This document shows, piece by piece, positions 10,810 through 19,923 of a stretch of DNA of 64,000 nucleotides (position 1 is the first letter of the stretch; each line of letters starts with the position of its first letter). The DNA is from Lachnospiraceae bacterium. GTDB lineage: Bacteria; Bacillota; Clostridia; Lachnospirales; Lachnospiraceae. The notes under the pieces were generated by a model, which saw nothing but the letters and a program-made list of their open reading frames with translations, was not told where the DNA came from and ran no database searches. The position numbers and the translations under genes were made by a program. Location: assembly GCA_902363665.1 (NCBI GenBank), contig CABJAW010000008.1:1-64000 (forward strand). Direction: 5' to 3'.

Positions 10810-12411
10810 TTATTTTAGTGATTCCACTGCTGCCTTCTCGATCGGAAGTCCTGCCTTGTAGCGCTCGATAAATGCGTCAAAGCCTGCCACATCCTCTGCC
10901 TTCGGCTGCATTTCAAGACCTTCGCTTCCTGCAAATACCTGATCTGCCAAGAACTGATCGAGTGTCTCGCCCTCTTTCTTATTTACCATATAGGAAGCAA
11001 GAAGTGCGATACCCCATGCGCCGCCCTCACCTGCGGTCTCCATAACGGATACCGGAGAATTGAGTGCTGCTGCCAGGATGCCCTGTCCCACGCCCTTTGT
11101 CTTGAACAGACCGCCGTGTCCGTAAATCTTGTCGATCTTTACATCCTCGTTCTTCAGAAGGATGTCAAAGCCGACCTTCAGTGCGCCAAGTGCTGTAAAC
11201 AGGTTGACACGCATGAAGTTTGCAAGGTTGAATTTGCTGTCCGGTTTTCTTGCAAAGAGCGGACGGCCCTCGTTGAAGCCTGTGATATGCTCGCCGGAAA
11301 AATAGTTGTATGCCAGGAGTCCGCCGCAGTCTGCGTCACCCTCAAGTGCCTTGTTGTAAAGTGTGCCGAACAGCTTGCCCATATCGACTTCCACGCCGAA
11401 TGCTTCTGCAAACTCTTTGAAAATATTTACCCATGCATTCAGATCGGACGTGCAGTTGTTGCAGTGTACCATTGCTACCTGATGTCCTGCCGGTGTCGTC
11501 ACGATATCAATTGCATCGTACGGCTTGGAAAGGTCTTTTTCCAGTACGATCATGCCGAATACGGAAGTACCTGCGGACACGTTTCCGGTACGTACTGCTA
11601 CGCTGTTTGTTGCTGCCATACCGGTGCCTGCATCTCCTTCCGGCGGGCAAACCGGGATGCCTGCCTGCAGCTTGCCGGATACGTCAAGCTTCTTTGCGCC
11701 CTCTGCAGTCAGTGTGCCTGCGCTCTCGCCTGCTACCAGTACCTTCGGGAAGATCTCTGAGAGCTTCCAGCCAAAGCCCTTCGGCGCTACGAGCTCATCG
11801 AATTTCTTTACCATCTCTGCGTTGTAATCTTTTGTCGCAGTATCGATCGGGAACATACCGGATGCCTCGCCGACACCTGCCACCTTCTCACCGGTCAGCT
11901 GCCAGTGAATGTACTCTGCCAGGGTCGATACGAATGCGATATCCTTTACGTGCTCCTCGCCGTTTAAGATTGCCTGATACAGATGTGCGATTGTCCATCT
12001 CTGCGGAATGTGGAACTGGAACAGCTCGGTCAGCTCCTCCGATGCCTGCTCTGTGATCGTATTTCTCCAGGTGCGGAACGGTACCATCAGCTCGCCTGCT
12101 GCATTGAACGGCATGTAGCCGTGCATCATGGCACTGAAACCGATGCCTGCCAGAGAGGTTACTTCCACTCCATATTTTGCCTTTACATCCTCTGTCATAT
12201 CACGGTAGCAGTCCTGCAGTCCGTTCCAGATTGCATCCAGACTGTACGTCCAGATTCCGTCTACCAGCTGATTTTCCCACTCGTGGCTTCCTGAAGCGAT
12301 CGGCGCGTTCGCCTCATCCACCAGTACTGCTTTGATTCGTGTGGAACCAAACTCAATACCAAGTACGGCTTTGCCGCTCTCAATCGTATTTTTTGTTGCT
12401 TCTACTCCCAT
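10810..12411 (-). CDS. FGGY-family carbohydrate kinase, ribulokinase-like
   Basis: A 533-residue sugar kinase of the ASKHA/FGGY superfamily, which phosphorylates a pentose, ketose or polyol with ATP. Visible marks: N-terminal phosphate loop [17 protein letters not shown] (about 16-32), catalytic region [29 protein letters not shown], and the C-terminal ATP loop [20 protein letters not shown] followed by [17 protein letters not shown]. The length and the MMHGYMPF and WRNT segments fit the ribulokinase-like proteins of clostridia that accompany AraA and AraD, but neither is present here, so the substrate remains open. It has a -10 element TATAAT in the 166-base gap shared with the divergent membrane-protein gene. 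Confidence 0.85.
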
Positions 12412-12577
12412 GTTCTGATCCTCCTATCAACTTCACGTGTTTTTTTGCGCTCACGTAAAATCATTATAGCATTCTTTCCTAAACAACGCCACTCATTTTT
12501 CCGGAATCTATGCAATTCTGACAATTGACTTGCGTGGTACAATAGTGAAAAAGAGAATCAGGGAAGTGATTTTATTT

Positions 12578-13363
12578 ATGAACAATTACTATATTGCTCA
12601 TTATTTTAATTTTGAAAATGCCGGCATTTTCATGCTGCTCGCATTTGCCGGTCTGCTCATCGTACTGGCAATCGTACTCGGCGTCGCCCGGATGCAGATG
12701 CATTACCATCTCCAGACAGAGGATCTCTCACCGCGCCGTGAGCGTCAGATCCGTTCCTTTCACCTCGCCCGTGAATACAACACGATCGAAAGCTTTTTCG
12801 AAATGGTATTCAGCAGCACCTCCATCCTTTTGTTTCTTTCACTCTACTACGTGATCGATGCACGGATTCCGGAAGCCGCTTTCTACTGGCAGAAATATCA
12901 GGACTTCTTTCTCCTGCTGTTTCTTCTGTGTTCCGTCGTGTTAAACGGATACCTGGATCGCGCATTTGTGCCGCTGCGCAGGATCTCCCCGGGTCAGAAG
13001 GCTTCCGTGCGTCTTGTCTCCTCATTTTACATCGTCCTGATCCTGCTGTATATCAAATTTATTTATCTCGATAACAACTACGATGCACTGATCATGTATT
13101 TCGTCACGCTTGCAGTCGGCCGTTTTATTTATTTTGACTTTACATGGAAGGATTTTCTTGGCACGCTGCGCGGTGTGCTGCAAAATCTTCCGCTGCTGAT
13201 CCTGATGGGCGGCTACTCTGCCTTCGTGTGCTGGTTTGGTTTTCATACCGGTTTTCTTCTGACCTCAAACGGAGTTATTCTAAGTACGCTGCTTGCCCAC
13301 CTGTTTATGGATGCTTCCATTTTTATCCTCGATAAAACAAAATTGCTGCGGCTGTTTCTCTGA
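12578..13363 (+). CDS. Polytopic membrane protein of unknown function, 261 aa
   Basis: The frame is open from 12530 but ATG 12578 is preferred: GGGAAGTG lies eight bases upstream. The product has about seven hydrophobic segments (roughly residues 14-36, 72-90, 103-120, 138-158, 161-180, 195-220 and 222-245) and a basic cytoplasmic loop RRERQIRSFHLAREYN after the first. I do not recognise a family. It is divergent from the FGGY kinase and convergent with the TetM-like fusion gene; the stop codon lies inside a small hairpin shared with that gene's 3' end. Confidence 0.7.
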   Translation: MNNYYIAHYFNFENAGIFMLLAFAGLLIVLAIVLGVARMQMHYHLQTEDLSPRRERQIRSFHLAREYNTIESFFEMVFSSTSILLFLSLYYVIDARIPEAAFYWQKYQDFFLLLFLLCSVVLNGYLDRAFVPLRRISPGQKASVRLVSSFYIVLILLYIKFIYLDNNYDALIMYFVTLAVGRFIYFDFTWKDFLGTLRGVLQNLPLLILMGGYSAFVCWFGFHTGFLLTSNGVILSTLLAHLFMDASIFILDKTKLLRLFL

Positions 13364-13375
13364 CAACCGCAGCAA
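13343..13375. terminator. Hairpin between convergent genes
   Basis: TTGCTGCGG (13343-13351) and CCGCAGCAA (13367-13375) form a perfect 9-bp stem that includes the stop codon of the + gene and ends two bases from the stop of the - gene. No long T-run follows, so termination efficiency is uncertain. Confidence 0.5.
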
Positions 13376-13377
13376 CA

Positions 13378-16125
13378 TTACAATGTTTTCTTTCCCAGCC
13401 GCACATCTTCCATCAGATCACTCATTTCATCATTCAAATGATCAAACAGATAATTTTTTCCTTCTGCCCTTTTCTCCGTATACTGCTCACGGATTTCTCT
13501 GCGCATTGCTGCGATCTCCTCTTCCAGATCATGTGCCGACATTCTCCGGCCGCCCTGCCCGAGGATGATGACCTGCTCCAGCGCATCGGACGTCGCCACC
13601 GTGACATTATACTTTCTTCCGATTGCATGGACCGTTTTTTCAATGTACTGGTCCGCTGTCTCCGCTTCCTTCGTGTAGACTACATAAATATTGTGATACT
13701 TCTGTACACTTCCCTGTCCGCCTTCCACGCGATATGCGTCAAAGACGAGAATCAGATTCATTTTTTTGTATCCCTGATAATTACTCAGAATATCCATCAG
13801 CTTCGTCCGAGCAGACTCCACATTGACCTTTGCAAGCTCGTTTAATTCTTCCCAGGAAAAAATGATGTTGTAGCCATCGACCAGAAGGTATTCGTCTCGC
13901 ACCTCCTGCTTTTTCGCAGGTGCCGATGAAGCCGATTCGCTGTAATCCATGCGCCGGCTTTTTTGCCAGCCGCTCTTTTCCCGCTTGATCGGGCCATAGG
14001 TGCGGGTAAAGATTTCTTCCAGTTCGTCATTCGTGATCGTCAGATTGGAACGGTCGTAACGGCTTGTCGGCCCGGCCGGTACGTCAGTACGCGGCTCATA
14101 TTCATTTTCGACTATATCCTGATCATCATCATTCTTTTTCTGTCCAATCACTCCGCTCGTATCCAGATGCGCATACTCCGGCACCAGATCCCAGTCGACC
14201 ACAAACCCTGCACCGTGTGCACAGAACACAGATCCCGTTGGATTCTCCAAATCCCCCTCTGGATCGTAGCCTCGTGCTTCGATCACTTCCTCCGCATTGT
14301 GGCATGGCTGATAGCTGCTGACGCTGCACGTCATCCGTCCTTTTCCCTTTGTATAGGAAATCAGCTCCGTCTGGTAGCCGCGCATTGTTACAACCGGTGC
14401 TGTTCCTTTCAAAACTGCATTTTCTCCTTCGATCTCCATCGGCGAAAAGCTGCCGTGCATTTTCTGGATATCCGTCATCGCGCGGCCCGCGCAGTCCAGC
14501 GGAAGCTCCAGCCGAAACTCATAGACCGGCTCTAACAGGACATTTTCCGCGCTCCGCAGTCCCTGCCGCAGCGCCCGGTACGTCGCCTGACGGAAATCTC
14601 CGCCCTCGGTGTGCTTCTGATGCGCACGCCCGGCGATCAGTGTGATCTTCATATCGGTAATCTCCGATCCGGTCAGTACGCCGATATGCTGTTTTTCCGC
14701 CAGATGCGTCAGGATCAGTCTCTGCCAGTTGCGATCCAGCACATCCTCACTGCAGGCCGTCTCAAACTGCAGACCGCTGCCCGGCTCCCCCGGCTCCATC
14801 AGAAGATGCACCTCCGCGTAATGGCGCAGCGGTTCAAAATGTCCGATTCCGATCATCGGCTTCACGATCGTCTCCTTGTAGACAATGCTGCCTGCGCCAA
14901 ATTCCACAGCAATGCCAAACCGTTCGGAAATCATATTTTTCAGGACTTCCGTCTGCACTTCTCCCATCAACTGCGCATAGATCTCTCCCAGCTCCTTGTT
15001 CCATGTGATATGCAGCTCCGGCTCTTCCTCCTCAAGCTGAAGAAACTTTCGATACGTCTGATGTACATCACAGTCCTCCGGAATCCGGATCTGATAGGAA
15101 AGCACCGGTTCCAGTACCGGAAGATGCACGCCGCATTCCGTTCCGAGTCCTTCTCCTGCCTTCGTATGATTCAGCCCGGTCACCGCACACACCATACCGG
15201 CCTGTGCCTCATTTACCGCCCGGAAAGATGATCCGGAACAGACACGGATCTGATTAACCTTTTCCTCCCACGCGTCCTCTCCGTCGCCGCCACGCAGCAC
15301 TGCTTTTACCTTCAGGCTGCCGCCCGTGATCTTCATATGCGTCAGGCGGTTGCCCTGCTCGTCACGTGAAATCTTGTAGACCCGCGCTGCAAATTCCTCC
15401 GGATAGCTTTTCTGCACACTGTATTCACGCAAAGCATCCAGCAGCTCCTGTACACCCTGAAGCTTCAGTGCCGAGCCAAAGTAGCACGGAAAGATCTTCC
15501 GCCGTGCGATCATCCGCGCGGCATCTTCCTTTCGGATTTCCCCCGTTTCCAGATACTGCTCCAGAAGTGATTCCTCACAAAGTGCTATTGCCTCTGCCGT
15601 CTCACCATCTGAAAGCGGATCGTCGGCCGCTGAAAAATCAATACAGTGCTCGTCCAGCTTTTTCTGCAGCTCCAAAAGCAGACTCGTCCGGTCCGTTCCC
15701 TGCTGATCCATCTTGTTGATAAACAGAAACGTCGGAATCTCATATTTTTTCAGCAGCCGCCACAGCGTCTCTACATGACTCTGCACACCATCCGCTCCGC
15801 TTATGAGCAGCACCGCATAATCAAGAATCTGCAGTGTCCGCTCCATTTCTGCCGAAAAATCCACATGACCCGGCGTATCGATCAAAGTCATTTCCATATC
15901 ATCCAGCATTACCTCTGCCTGTTTGGAAAAGATCGTGATGCCGCGTGCACGCTCCATTGCAAAATTATCCAGAAACGCATCCTGATGATCCACGCGCCCG
16001 AGCTTCCGTATTCCTCCGGTCAGGTAAAGGATTGCCTCCGCAAGCGTCGTTTTCCCGGCATCGACATGAGCAAGCAGCGCGGTACAGATATGTTTTTGCA
16101 TCTTATCGCCTTTCTGTGTATTCAT
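13378..16125 (-). CDS. Fusion of TetM-like ribosomal GTPase with Rae1/YacP-type NYN nuclease
   Basis: The 915-residue product has two parts. Residues 1 to about 660 are an EF-G-related GTPase of the ribosomal protection (TetM/TetO) type: P-loop AHVDAGKTT, switch region MERARGITIFS, DTPGHVDF, NKMD, then EF-G domains ending GKGRMTCSVSSYQPC. After a hydrophilic linker, residues 744-915 match a whole NYN-domain endonuclease of the YacP/Rae1 family: VDGYNIIFSW, VFDAYRVEGG, YTKEAETADQYIE and ATSDALEQ carry the acidic active-site residues. Rae1 of Bacillus cleaves mRNA in the ribosomal A site, and TetM-type factors bind at the same place, so a joined function on stalled or drug-bound ribosomes is plausible (inference). 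Start is ATG 16125 (GAGAGG eight bases upstream) or ATG 16101 (GAAAGGCG). Promoter is perfect consensus. Tetracycline resistance itself cannot be assumed. Confidence 0.88.
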   Translation of the reverse strand: MNTQKGDKMQKHICTALLAHVDAGKTTLAEAILYLTGGIRKLGRVDHQDAFLDNFAMERARGITIFSKQAEVMLDDMEMTLIDTPGHVDFSAEMERTLQILDYAVLLISGADGVQSHVETLWRLLKKYEIPTFLFINKMDQQGTDRTSLLLELQKKLDEHCIDFSAADDPLSDGETAEAIALCEESLLEQYLETGEIRKEDAARMIARRKIFPCYFGSALKLQGVQELLDALREYSVQKSYPEEFAARVYKISRDEQGNRLTHMKITGGSLKVKAVLRGGDGEDAWEEKVNQIRVCSGSSFRAVNEAQAGMVCAVTGLNHTKAGEGLGTECGVHLPVLEPVLSYQIRIPEDCDVHQTYRKFLQLEEEEPELHITWNKELGEIYAQLMGEVQTEVLKNMISERFGIAVEFGAGSIVYKETIVKPMIGIGHFEPLRHYAEVHLLMEPGEPGSGLQFETACSEDVLDRNWQRLILTHLAEKQHIGVLTGSEITDMKITLIAGRAHQKHTEGGDFRQATYRALRQGLRSAENVLLEPVYEFRLELPLDCAGRAMTDIQKMHGSFSPMEIEGENAVLKGTAPVVTMRGYQTELISYTKGKGRMTCSVSSYQPCHNAEEVIEARGYDPEGDLENPTGSVFCAHGAGFVVDWDLVPEYAHLDTSGVIGQKKNDDDQDIVENEYEPRTDVPAGPTSRYDRSNLTITNDELEEIFTRTYGPIKREKSGWQKSRRMDYSESASSAPAKKQEVRDEYLLVDGYNIIFSWEELNELAKVNVESARTKLMDILSNYQGYKKMNLILVFDAYRVEGGQGSVQKYHNIYVVYTKEAETADQYIEKTVHAIGRKYNVTVATSDALEQVIILGQGGRRMSAHDLEEEIAAMRREIREQYTEKRAEGKNYLFDHLNDEMSDLMEDVRLGKKTL

Positions 16126-16187
16126 AAATTAATCCTCTCAGATTTCATTTTCTTTCACGTTTATTATCCATCCATTTCATGACGCCC

Positions 16188-16202
16188 GGGGCAAAAGCCC
16201 CC
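16188..16202 (-). other. 5' leader hairpin of the TetM-like fusion transcript
   Basis: GGGGC, AAAA loop, GCCCC pairing close to the predicted transcription start. No T-run, so it is more likely a 5' stabilising structure than a terminator. Confidence 0.45.
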
Positions 16203-16213
16203 GATATCATTCC

Positions 16214-16242
16214 ATTATATTAGCATCCCAGCAGTGTGTCAA
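16214..16242 (-). promoter_or_regulatory. Perfect-consensus sigma-A promoter of the fusion gene
   Basis: TTGACA (16237-16242), 17-base spacer, TATAAT (16214-16219) on the minus strand. Leader of about 80 bases to the start codon. Confidence 0.85.
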
Positions 16243-16276
16243 CGAACCGCACACCAAACAACAAACAGCTGTTGTA

Positions 16277-16299
16277 AAGCGGACATTCGCAATCCGCTC
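16277..16299 (-). repeat. AAGCGGAT-family intergenic palindrome, copy
   Basis: Read on the minus strand: GAGCGGAT, loop TGCGAAT, GTCCGCTT. It lies just upstream of the promoter of the TetM-like fusion gene and ahead of the divergent chromate transporter gene. Confidence 0.75.
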
Positions 16300-16437
16300 T
16301 GGCGCAAATATTTTTCCATACACACAGACGTACGAATGTGATATACTGTATACCGCAAATAATGGTTTGGCAAACCGCAGAATTGTTATTTTACACATTT
16401 GAACACAAAAGGTTATCTTCAAAACGAAAGGTTATTT

Positions 16438-17001
16438 ATGAAAAAATTATGTTCCCTTTTCCTTATGTTTTTTAAAATCGGCGCTTTCACCTTTGGCGGT
16501 GGCTACGCAATGATCGCACTTCTGGAAAATGAATTCATCACACGCCGTCACTGGATGACTCAGGAAGAATTTCTTGACATGACGGCAATCGCCGAGTCCA
16601 CGCCCGGTCCTGTGGCCGTAAACAGCGCCACTTACCTCGGCTACCGCCTTGGCGGTGTGTCAGGTGCGCTCGTATCAACGATTGCTGTCTGTCTTCCGTC
16701 CTTTTTGATCATTTATCTGATCTCTCTTTTTTTCGATCAGTTTCTGAACCTCACGATCGTGGGCAAGGCCTTCCGCGGCATTCAGGTATGCGTGATCTAT
16801 CTGATCTTCTCCGCCGGAATCCGCATGCTGAAAGGTCTGAAACACACCGTATTCAACTACATGATTCTTATTACAGTCATCTGCTCCATGGTGATCTGTA
16901 CCGTATTCTCGGTGAATTTTTCCTCAATTTTTTATGTGCTGATCTGCGGATGCATCGGTATCGGCGGTTTTCTCATGCAGCGGATTTCACAGAGAAAATA
17001 A
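16438..17001 (+). CDS. Chromate-type transporter, first half subunit
   Basis: A short-chain CHR-family membrane protein of 187 residues; such halves work in pairs and export chromate or move related anions, though the physiological substrate in anaerobes is often unknown. The family motifs FFKIGAFTFGGGYAMIALLE and IAESTPGPVAVNSATYLGYRLGG are present, followed by four to five hydrophobic segments. ATG 16438 is chosen over the upstream start at 16399 because GAAAGG lies six bases ahead and the motif is only 12 residues in. The second half begins 117 bases downstream, with a hairpin in between. Confidence 0.9.
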   Translation: MKKLCSLFLMFFKIGAFTFGGGYAMIALLENEFITRRHWMTQEEFLDMTAIAESTPGPVAVNSATYLGYRLGGVSGALVSTIAVCLPSFLIIYLISLFFDQFLNLTIVGKAFRGIQVCVIYLIFSAGIRMLKGLKHTVFNYMILITVICSMVICTVFSVNFSSIFYVLICGCIGIGGFLMQRISQRK

Positions 17002-17026
17002 TCAAACCAAACTTATCTGAAGATTC

Positions 17027-17078
17027 AAAACAGCTATTCTCAATCCACTTTGATCCGGTTCAGGCAAATAGCTGTTTT
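17027..17078 (+). other. Hairpin between the two chromate transporter halves
   Basis: A perfect 12-bp inverted repeat, AAAACAGCTATT (17027-17038) and AATAGCTGTTTT (17067-17078), with a 28-base loop. The arm ends in TTTT, so it could act as a partial terminator or attenuator that reduces expression of the second gene. Confidence 0.6.
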
Positions 17079-17118
17079 CTTCATATAATAGCCATTTTTT
17101 GACATCAGGAGACCTCAA

Positions 17119-17688
17119 ATGGAAAAACTGATTTTTCTTTTTCTTACTTTTCTTGAGATCGGCGCCGTCTCATTCGGCGGCGGCTATGGCATGATCTCGC
17201 TGATCCGCGAAAAGGTTCTGCAATACGGCTGGCTTTCGGAATCAGACTTTCTGAATTTTATCGCAGTATCTGAATCCACACCCGGACCGCTTGCCGTCAA
17301 TATGGCGACCTTTATCGGCTCTTCGCAGGCCGGTCTCGCCGGTGCGGCCGCCGCCACCTTCGGCGTTGTCCTGCCGTCCTTTGTAATCATTTTGATGATC
17401 GCGGCTTTGATCCGCAGCTTCTTAAAATACTCCGGCGTACAGGCCTTTTTATCAGGCGTCCGCCCCTGTGTGGTGGCAATGATTCTCGCCACTGCACTGA
17501 CGATGGCAGGCAGTACACTGCTTGGTTTTTCTTCTCTTTCCGAAAAAATCAGCCCGGATGTGCGCGGCATCGGATTGTTTGCCTGCCTTCTGCTTCTGCA
17601 CGGGCTATCCGTAAAAATATGGAAGAAAAAGCCCTCGCCGATTCTGATGATACTGATTTCGGCGGGGCTGGGGATACTGATTTATTAG
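17119..17688 (+). CDS. Chromate-type transporter, second half subunit
   Basis: A 189-residue CHR-family half protein, partner of the gene upstream. It carries FLEIGAVSFGGGYGMISLIREKV and VSESTPGPLAVNMATFIGSSQAG, which correspond to the duplicated motifs of long CHR proteins, and four or more membrane segments. AGGAGA lies ahead of the ATG. Split pairs of about 190 residues each are the usual arrangement in Firmicutes. It is followed by a palindromic repeat at 17708-17730. Confidence 0.9.
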   Translation: MEKLIFLFLTFLEIGAVSFGGGYGMISLIREKVLQYGWLSESDFLNFIAVSESTPGPLAVNMATFIGSSQAGLAGAAAATFGVVLPSFVIILMIAALIRSFLKYSGVQAFLSGVRPCVVAMILATALTMAGSTLLGFSSLSEKISPDVRGIGLFACLLLLHGLSVKIWKKKPSPILMILISAGLGILIY

Positions 17689-18330: not shown

Positions 18331-19923
18331 ATGGGAAGCTATCTCAATCCCGGGAACAAAGGATTTCGGGAAAGTCTGAATTCAGAAATATACGTCGATA
18401 AAACCGGTCTGATCGAACGGACAAACGCGCTTCTTGATACCAGAGAAAAGTATATCTGCGTAAGCCGTCCGAGACGCTTCGGAAAATCCATGGCTGCCGA
18501 CATGCTGGCCGCCTATTATGGGCAGGATACCGATTCGGAAGCGCTGTTTCAAAATCTCTACATTGAAACGTGTCCTTCATTTCGGGAACATCTGAATAAA
18601 TACAATGTAGTGAAACTGAACATGCAGGATTTTCTGAGTGCCTCACACAGTGTTCAGGACATGCTTGGCCGAATCCAAAAATATGTGATTTTTGATCTGA
18701 CAGATGCGTATGAAACAATCCGTTACCGCGACGAAACAGATCTTGTACAGGTCATGAAAGATGTTTATGCTGCCACAAAGCATCCTTTCATCATCCTTAT
18801 TGATGAATGGGACTGTCTGTTTCGTGAATACCAGCAGGATCAGGATGCACAAAAAAAATACCTCGATTTTCTCCGGATGTGGCTGAAAGATAAGGACTAT
18901 GTTTCCCTCGCTTACATGACCGGAATCCTTCCAATTAAGAAATACGGCACACATTCCGCATTAAATATGTTTTCTGAGTATTCCATGATAAATCCGCGGG
19001 AAATGGCAAAATATTTTGGTTTTACAGAAGCAGAAGTGAAAAATCTTTGCGAACGCTATGACCGAAGCTTTGAGGAAACGCGTGCATGGTATGACGGCTA
19101 TGAAGTGTTGACTGTAGAAAATAATACCCAGCAAGTCTGTGAACTTTACAGCCCGAAGTCTGTCGTCGAAGCCATGAAAAGCGGTATTTTTGATAATTAC
19201 TGGAACCAGACAGAAACGTATGAAGCATTAAAGGTCTATGTTCAGCTGAATTTTGATGGTTTAAAGGATGCCGTCGTAAAGATGCTTGCCGGCGAACGGA
19301 TTCCCATTAATACGGGCACTTTCTCCAACGACATGACGACCTTTCAGTGCCGCGACGATGTTCTGACACTCCTGGTGCATCTGGGATACCTTGGCTACCA
19401 CTGGCCGGATAAAACAGTGTTCATTCCGAACAAAGAAATTGCACAGGAATATATCAACGCAATCAGCATGATGGATTGGCACGAGGTAATTGATTCCATT
19501 AACGCATCAAAAAAACTTCTGGAAGCTCTGTGGAACGGAGAGGAAGCCGCTGTTGCCGACGGAATTGACCATGCCCACTCAGAGATTTCCATCCTGCAGT
19601 ATAACGATGAAAATTCCTTAAGCTGCACCATTCATCTCGCGTTTTATTTTGCACGGGAGTACTATACCATTATCCGTGAACTGCCCACAGGAAAAGGCTT
19701 TGCCGATATCTGTTTCCTGCCCAGAAAACTGTACGCAGACAAACCAGCCGTCATTATTGAACTGAAATGGGATCGGGATGTCCATGGCGCAATCGCACAG
19801 ATCCAGGAACGCCGCTACCCGGCCGCGTTAAAAGACTACCACGGCAATCTTATTCTTGCCGGAATCAGTTATGATAAAAAGACCAAGAGACACAGTTGTC
19901 TGATTGAAAAGCTGAATCTCTGA
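18331..19923 (+). CDS. AAA-ATPase-like protein with PD-(D/E)XK nuclease domain
   Basis: A 530-residue protein of the clostridial and Bacteroides AAA-ATPase-like family (the AAA-ATPase_like plus PD-(D/E)XK_9 architecture). The N-terminus GFRESLNSEIYVDKTGLIERT is the family signature; the P-loop is SRPRRFGKS (45-53) and Walker B is FIILIDEWD (153-161). The C-terminal nuclease-like fold has GFADICFLP then PAVIIELKWD, matching D...ExK. Members are often multicopy and their role is unknown; a link to mobile DNA or defence has been suggested from genome context only. The gene has a textbook AGGAGG and is followed by a strong terminator. Confidence 0.88.
   Translation: MGSYLNPGNKGFRESLNSEIYVDKTGLIERTNALLDTREKYICVSRPRRFGKSMAADMLAAYYGQDTDSEALFQNLYIETCPSFREHLNKYNVVKLNMQDFLSASHSVQDMLGRIQKYVIFDLTDAYETIRYRDETDLVQVMKDVYAATKHPFIILIDEWDCLFREYQQDQDAQKKYLDFLRMWLKDKDYVSLAYMTGILPIKKYGTHSALNMFSEYSMINPREMAKYFGFTEAEVKNLCERYDRSFEETRAWYDGYEVLTVENNTQQVCELYSPKSVVEAMKSGIFDNYWNQTETYEALKVYVQLNFDGLKDAVVKMLAGERIPINTGTFSNDMTTFQCRDDVLTLLVHLGYLGYHWPDKTVFIPNKEIAQEYINAISMMDWHEVIDSINASKKLLEALWNGEEAAVADGIDHAHSEISILQYNDENSLSCTIHLAFYFAREYYTIIRELPTGKGFADICFLPRKLYADKPAVIIELKWDRDVHGAIAQIQERRYPAALKDYHGNLILAGISYDKKTKRHSCLIEKLNL

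Follow-up and report, generated by a model that had tools for sequence, protein, structure and literature searches.

The 64,000-nucleotide stretch of Lachnospiraceae DNA that we analysed, referred to below as the window, carries on its reverse strand a gene in which a translational GTPase of the EF-G type is joined, through a long tether, to a nuclease domain of the Rae1 (YacP) type. The gene, its signals and the parts of its product (domains from Pfam, tether from AlphaFold2 with its predicted local distance difference test, pLDDT) are as follows.

16214..16242 (-): predicted promoter TTGACA-17-TATAAT, 12/12 consensus
16133..16138 (-): likely ribosome-binding site AGAGGA, identified by eye, 7 nt 5' of the ATG
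13378..16125 (-), stop codon included: GTPase-tether-NYN fusion gene, 915 aa, ATG start, no internal stop
15421..16095 (-): G domain (GTP_EFTU), residues 11-235, Pfam 4.3e-50, GTPase motifs intact
15145..15393 (-): EF-G domain 2 (EF-G_D2), residues 245-327, Pfam
14896..15111 (-): EF-G domain III (EFG_III), residues 339-410, Pfam
14548..14889 (-): EF-G domain IV (EFG_IV), residues 413-526, Pfam
14590..14622 (-): domain IV tip HQKHTEGGDFR, residues 502-512, common to unfused relatives and absent from Tet-type comparators
14296..14541 (-): EF-G domain V (EFG_C), residues 529-610, Pfam
14161..14295 (-): C-terminal segment of the subfamily with an SVFCxHGxG motif, residues 611-655, about where unfused relatives stop
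13897..14136 (-): tether, residues 664-743, mostly with pLDDT below 50
13996..14031 (-): predicted helix in the tether, residues 699-710, NDELEEIFTRTY, AlphaFold2
13399..13887 (-): NYN_YacP (Rae1-type) nuclease domain, residues 747-909, with D750, D796, D825 and D847, Pfam
13342..13376 (-): intrinsic terminator directly 3' of the stop codon, 14-pair stem and T tract

The protein is a member of the translational GTPase superfamily, with intact G motifs followed by EF-G domains II-V. It consists of a complete GTPase, a flexible tether and a complete nuclease domain that keeps its acidic residues. Indeed, the match to NYN_YacP (PF05991) covers positions 1-165 of the 166 of the profile (1.4e-52, 178.4 bits for a curated cut-off of 24.6), and the C-terminal 176 aa match the solved B. 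subtilis YacP, 5mq9, at 4.9e-26. Every one of the 110 aligned fusions has D750, D796, D825 and D847, which align to YacP and which we take to be the catalytic residues of NYN. The same invariance is observed for the GTPase residues G24, K25, T26, T64, D83-G86, N137, K138 and D140. This alignment, which includes the window protein, was drawn from 125 frames with both halves by keeping those longer than 840 aa, with the GTPase covered and non-duplicate, and dropping short or broken frames; the median identity of its members to the window protein is 60%. A preliminary description of the locus had claimed one uninterrupted frame joining a TetM-type GTPase to a whole Rae1-type nuclease with its active-site aspartates. 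The frame, the fusion of two complete proteins and the aspartates are all borne out, with the nuclease profile match starting at residue 747 and not at about 740; the TetM label, as detailed below, is not.

The AlphaFold2 model (mean pLDDT 80.4, predicted template modelling score, pTM, 0.52) shows two confident bodies, with pLDDT below 50 at residues 664-698 and 710-739. The helix between these two segments was considered as a conserved docking helix and rejected, its pattern fitting just 71 of the 110 fusions. In a Foldseek search, the model resembles EF-G and TetM (3j9y, target TM score 0.81); the NYN half is absent among the 50 matches listed, and its kinship rests on sequence. Between the SVFC motif and the nuclease sequence VDGYN, fused proteins have 75-164 residues (median 100), and some 15-20 of these still belong to the GTPase tail.

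That two genes were fused by the assembly, the objection that the preliminary description had raised against itself, is ruled out by full-length near-identical copies together with the 110 distinct aligned fusions: the best 120 of 7977 proteins scored (the window's own included) are 97-100% identical, with lengths of 907-916 aa. Further afield, a contig scan of genomes confirmed 309 relatives, the best 80 of which align over almost the whole length, with best-segment identities to the window protein of 51-87%; 33 of these 80 are titled Lachnospiraceae, and the others bear clostridial names. In the window, the fusion gene seems to be transcribed alone, from its own predicted promoter to its own predicted terminator. 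Four promoter-like sites are found in the 451 bases scanned (16000-16450) for a shuffle mean of 1.4, the one listed above being the sole full match, and the terminator scan 3' of the gene gives one match (mean of shuffles 0.0). No terminator-like site that would suggest a drug-induced attenuator is present in 16000-16450, and an Rfam scan of 12300-17000 gave no match near its gathering score.

By sequence, the GTPase is not of the TetM type, and it does not group with the ribosomal-protection clade. Among NCBIfam models, tet_protect fits it best, with a score of 426.2 bits for a required 775, and three unfused relatives score 408-451, while the controls L101 and L104 pass with 853.2 and 831.9; the NCBIfam EF-G equivalog gives 303.4 bits for a cut-off of 659.4. 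The comparison with ribosomal protection proteins, which the preliminary description had suggested as a check, thus goes against the TetM label, on this score and on the tip of domain IV. In Tet proteins, the loops of this tip dislodge tetracycline, according to the part of Atkinson 2015 (PMC4342817) that treats them. The sequence H-x-KHT-x-GGDFR occupies the tip of 108 of the 110 fusions (L140 departs from it by one change and L185 is divergent) and of 22 of 22 unfused relatives. The tip TPADFR, in contrast, is found in 8/8 Tet-type comparators, 0/110 fusions and 0/22 unfused relatives; among these eight, L099 and L100 fall under the NCBI cut-off, which L101 and L104 exceed, L112 is unscored, and L102, L103 and L111 share at least 98% identity with L101, with L102 identical to L111. 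The passages of reviews that touch on Tet tip residues or unfused relatives (PMC8161019, PMC1780047) offer nothing decisive. In a 59-row GTPase tree obtained by a quick search, with support from the Shimodaira-Hasegawa-like approximate likelihood ratio test only, the 28 fused proteins form one clade (99), fused and unfused proteins together form one clade (100), four Tet-type proteins form a separate one (99) and three EF-Gs lie outside (100). A FastTree of all 110 fused GTPases also gives one fused clade. A further EF-G-like group (L163, L164 and L165; 33-36% identity) has the tip HxxH-S/T-xxxDF and lacks the SVFC tail; its frames are too short for an NYN domain, and L163 reaches 606 bits for the NCBI ribosomal protection protein cut-off of 775.

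The unfused relatives show where the GTPase ends. In our class sample (291 genomes of the class of Kineothrix, G010; the family sample used below consists of 150 genomes of its family), 16 genomes hold 17 of them, in frames of 645-729 codons with 44-48% identity, and none of the 16 also holds a fusion. They stop within about 15 residues of the conserved His after the SVFC-G motif, at the place where fused proteins continue. Since the unfused relatives end where the tether begins, the fusion is a complete GTPase plus a tether plus a complete Rae1. One genome (G139) has two unfused GTPases of the subfamily (L155 and L158), about 680 kb apart. When the unfused L146 is compared to Firmicutes replicons, full-length matches of 41-56% are obtained (30 of 1217 records listed), and 26 of these 30 are annotated as TetM/W/O/S family. 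The unfused matches, some of them called 'translation factor GTPase family protein', come for instance from Ligilactobacillus salivarius megaplasmids and from Paenibacillus. These replicon relatives resemble the GTPase half alone and have no fused NYN. An example of the Ligilactobacillus salivarius megaplasmid match is NC_007930.1:226573-228447, at about 41% to L146; most of those listed are annotated TetM/W/O/S.

We then come to the nuclease, for which the fused form is common in the family. In the class sample, 188 of 291 genomes have a YacP domain over the cut-off, and the 150 rows listed comprise 88 domains in frames of at least 800 codons, 56 in frames of at most 230 and 6 between. In the family sample, a YacP match occurs in 135 of 150 genomes, and 138 rows (not genomes) comprise 120 frames of at least 800 codons, 12 of at most 230 (two of them of 139 and 56) and 6 between. 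In neither sample does a complete free YacP occur in the same genome as a long-frame one; the additional YacP piece of G346, of 139 codons, lies at a contig edge. Exactly one YacP domain over the cut-off was found in each of 18 fusion genomes (frames of 884-1006 codons), which were drawn from the genomes of the 80 loci, are of unstated completeness and do not include the window's own genome. Second matches in G011, G154, G219 and G260 stay below the cut-off, at about 21 bits. The locus nearest to that of the window (L001, 87%) belongs to a genome whose one YacP domain is in a 963-codon frame. Two particular cases can be mentioned: G151 has two complete fusions (G151:C16 and G151:C48, frames of 894 and 890 codons), and in G349 a GTPase (711 aa) and an NYN (190 aa) are adjacent in overlapping frames (L187:675-3357, minus strand), either a split form or an assembly frameshift.

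The place that a free yacP would occupy can also be examined. Eight family genomes have a free NYN of 172-173 aa, which comes directly after rlmB in six (L195, L196, L197, L199, L200 and L201) and does not in L194 and L198; RlmB was identified by profile in L200, by BLAST in L197 and L201, and by the frame start in the other three. Outside this set of eight stand G375 (a 260-codon NYN frame, with only a 33%-identity GTPase), G349 (split), G402 (contig break), and genomes whose frames are broken or at an edge, G435 and G346 among them. The order rlmB-yacP followed by a SigH-like gene is also found in L166, L172 and L177. In fusion genomes, no NYN lies within about 1.5 kb of rlmB in any of the 12 whose locus was examined. 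In 7 of these, the SigH-like gene comes directly after rlmB, 4-210 bases on, so the free yacP is gone from its usual place in at least seven fusion genomes; the other 5 have neither an NYN nor a SigH-like gene in the stretch examined beside rlmB. SigH is over the NCBIfam cut-off in L200, L218 and L224. The frame preceding rlmB matches its L200 counterpart in 11 of the 12; NCBIfam gives it no name, and from its position we presume that it is mrnC. In the NYN tree, the 28 fused domains group with 10 free YacPs (90/99), 8 of which are from the family sample, 6 of them after rlmB; the fusion gene itself is not at the rlmB locus.

The architecture is not new. Atkinson 2015 (PMC4342817) mentions, in one sentence, that in ten clostridial species Tet proteins carry a YacP-like NYN domain, and suggests a link to antibiotic resistance; the window protein, clostridial and of the same architecture, belongs to this group as far as one sentence allows. 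This sentence places the fusion in the tetracycline-resistance subfamily, whereas in our tree its GTPase groups with unfused relatives and not with the Tet comparators, and none of the 18 genomes has another YacP over the cut-off. The preliminary description knew of no experiment on such a protein, and we found none in the literature searched, which did not extend to the principal work on Rae1 (Leroy 2017, Condon 2018, Deves 2023, Gilet 2025); the architecture itself, however, has been in print since 2015. To our knowledge, it is new that the GTPase separates from the Tet-type comparators, that it has unfused sisters, that the fusion replaces the free Rae1 and that the latter's place between rlmB and sigH is empty.

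Among known systems, B. subtilis Rae1 is described, in the parts of PMC6613710 and PMC12320835 that concern it, as an A-site mRNA endonuclease, and its gene as co-transcribed with yacO, an rlmB homologue (PMC6613710), which parallels the free yacP after rlmB of the family genomes. It shares with the fusion the whole NYN domain and the acidic residues (5mq8, 5mq9), but, at about 170-180 aa, it is free and not the tail of a 915-aa GTPase. TetM and TetO (3j9y, 4v6v) have the same five-domain EF-G-like build, with 26-30% identity, whereas the window GTPase differs by its tip, its extra SVFC-HG C-terminal segment, its sub-cut-off score and its separate clade. Bacteroides EF-G2 (8dmf), an EF-G paralogue that illustrates how a factor can be listed under a Tet name (its sequence also carries the molecule name TetQ), has 718 aa, no nuclease domain and 22% identity to the window protein.

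Around the fusion, no conserved neighbour genes emerge from the 80 loci, the largest cluster (frames of at least 120 aa) occurring in 15 of them. In the window, two adjacent single-domain chromate transporter genes (16399-17688, plus strand) diverge from the fusion gene, and a 277-aa frame (12530-13363, plus strand), a membrane protein by eye with no Pfam match at 1e-5, converges with it. Farther on lies a 530-aa AAA-ATPase_like and PDDEXK_9 protein (18331-19923, plus strand), with no PADLOC match at 0.001.

The factor site of the ribosome is where translational GTPases with an EF-G fold act. The reading that we favour, and to which we give somewhat better than even chances, is that the fusion is this bacterium's Rae1 (YacP), now appended to a translational GTPase that hands the A site of a halted ribosome to the tethered nuclease. 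In its GTP form, the GTPase would dock on ribosomes with a vacant or blocked A site, and its own domain IV tip would probe the decoding centre. GTP hydrolysis would then pull domain IV out, and the nuclease, held close by the tether, would enter the A site and cut the mRNA; the truncated message would go to the ordinary rescue (tmRNA-type) and decay pathways. As domain IV and the nuclease would both want the same A site, they would have to act in turn. A tether residue can span up to about 3.5 A, so a tether of about 80 residues should let the nuclease reach the decoding centre once domain IV is withdrawn. The coupling of cleavage to a GTPase-driven access, which the preliminary description had also proposed, would make Rae1 activity in this clade a GTPase-licensed step of ribosome surveillance, and not that of a freely diffusing enzyme. 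It is the combination of the parts present, the roles of their families and the reach of the tether that makes us favour a GTPase that recognises the halted ribosome and passes its A site to the nuclease. Also in favour of this reading are the domain IV tip kept in fused and unfused forms alike, the single YacP domain over the cut-off in each of the 18 fusion genomes and the lack of an NYN beside rlmB in 12 of 12.

Several observations weigh against this proposal. With a pTM of 0.52, the model does not fix how the two bodies sit relative to each other, and, as B. subtilis Rae1 is a free protein, the chemistry does not need a fused GTPase. None of 200 bootstrap trees unites the fused NYNs in one clade, yet such a clade is not rejected by the approximately unbiased test (p 0.51), so that the NYN tree neither shows nor rejects their single origin. 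In addition, 6 genomes of the class sample have an unfused GTPase without any YacP, and class-wide the unfused GTPase accompanies free YacP in 10 of 83 YacP genomes and occurs in 6 of 101 without (Fisher p 0.19; a table compiled by hand from lists, the weak match in G266 excluded). In the family sample, the corresponding figures are 5/8 and 0/15 (p 0.0017), for a contrast that was picked post hoc, ignores kinship and counts among its five one truncated 541-codon frame (G406). It is a tentative idea, which we hold to be possible but doubtful, that the GTPase is a dedicated loading and timing factor of the A-site mRNA endonuclease; the unfused GTPases, whose domain IV tip is the same, would then be free partners of free Rae1.

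The alternative that survives best, although we consider it unlikely, is that two jobs share one chain: the GTPase factor would be unrelated to Rae1 and would have only the promoter in common with it, with no mechanical coupling. The long, disordered tether would suit it, as do the unfused GTPases of the six genomes without YacP and the class-wide co-occurrence that is not significant. The distribution of the nuclease speaks against it: none of the 18 fusion genomes has a free yacP over the cut-off, none of 12 has one beside rlmB, and, the contig-edge piece of G346 apart, the long-frame and complete free forms are never together in the class and family samples. By family, moreover, both halves act at the ribosome.

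A resistance factor, in which the GTPase would expel tetracycline or another A-site drug with the assistance of an added RNase, is improbable, and this reading of the fusion looks wrong from the comparisons above. It can invoke tet_protect as the best NCBIfam model, the TetM-like fold and the assignment to the Tet subfamily in the sentence of Atkinson 2015 (PMC4342817). But the score is below the curated cut-off, the TPADFR tip is confined to the comparators, and these form a separate clade with a support of 99. The fusion is also common in the family, not sporadic, and 4 of 12 fusion genomes (G003, G004, G005 and G013) have a TetM/W/O-type gene as well, while G012 and G014 carry the two Tet-like proteins with the TPADFR tip (L099 and L100) that are under the NCBI cut-off. 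These additional Tet genes, together with the full-consensus promoter and the lack of an attenuator in the stretch scanned, lend no support to the antibiotic stress that the preliminary description had offered as an example of when the fusion would act.

Less probable still is an older proposal for YacP, the processing of rRNA or tRNA, the GTPase bringing the NYN half to immature or defective ribosomes: this role is cited in a passage of Atkinson 2015 (PMC4342817), and free yacP adjoins the gene of the 23S rRNA methylase RlmB, but the NYN match spans the whole domain with its acids conserved, and Rae1 of B. subtilis is described as an mRNA endonuclease where PMC6613710 and PMC12320835 treat it. 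An anti-phage or toxin-like ribosome nuclease is very hard to believe, the single PADLOC match (ThsB model, E 9.5e-6, residues 738-826) being weak and partial in a gene that lacks conserved neighbours and is common in the family sample.

At the level of annotation, relatives of this GTPase are labelled tetracycline-resistance proteins (26 of the 30 listed plasmid matches of L146), a role that the sequences argue against for the group studied. In the genomes where the only Rae1 is bolted to a ribosome-probing GTPase, the way in which Rae1-type nucleases find and enter particular A sites becomes directly testable. Should the unfused GTPases indeed be free partners of free Rae1, the action of Rae1 in other Firmicutes may also be GTPase-assisted.

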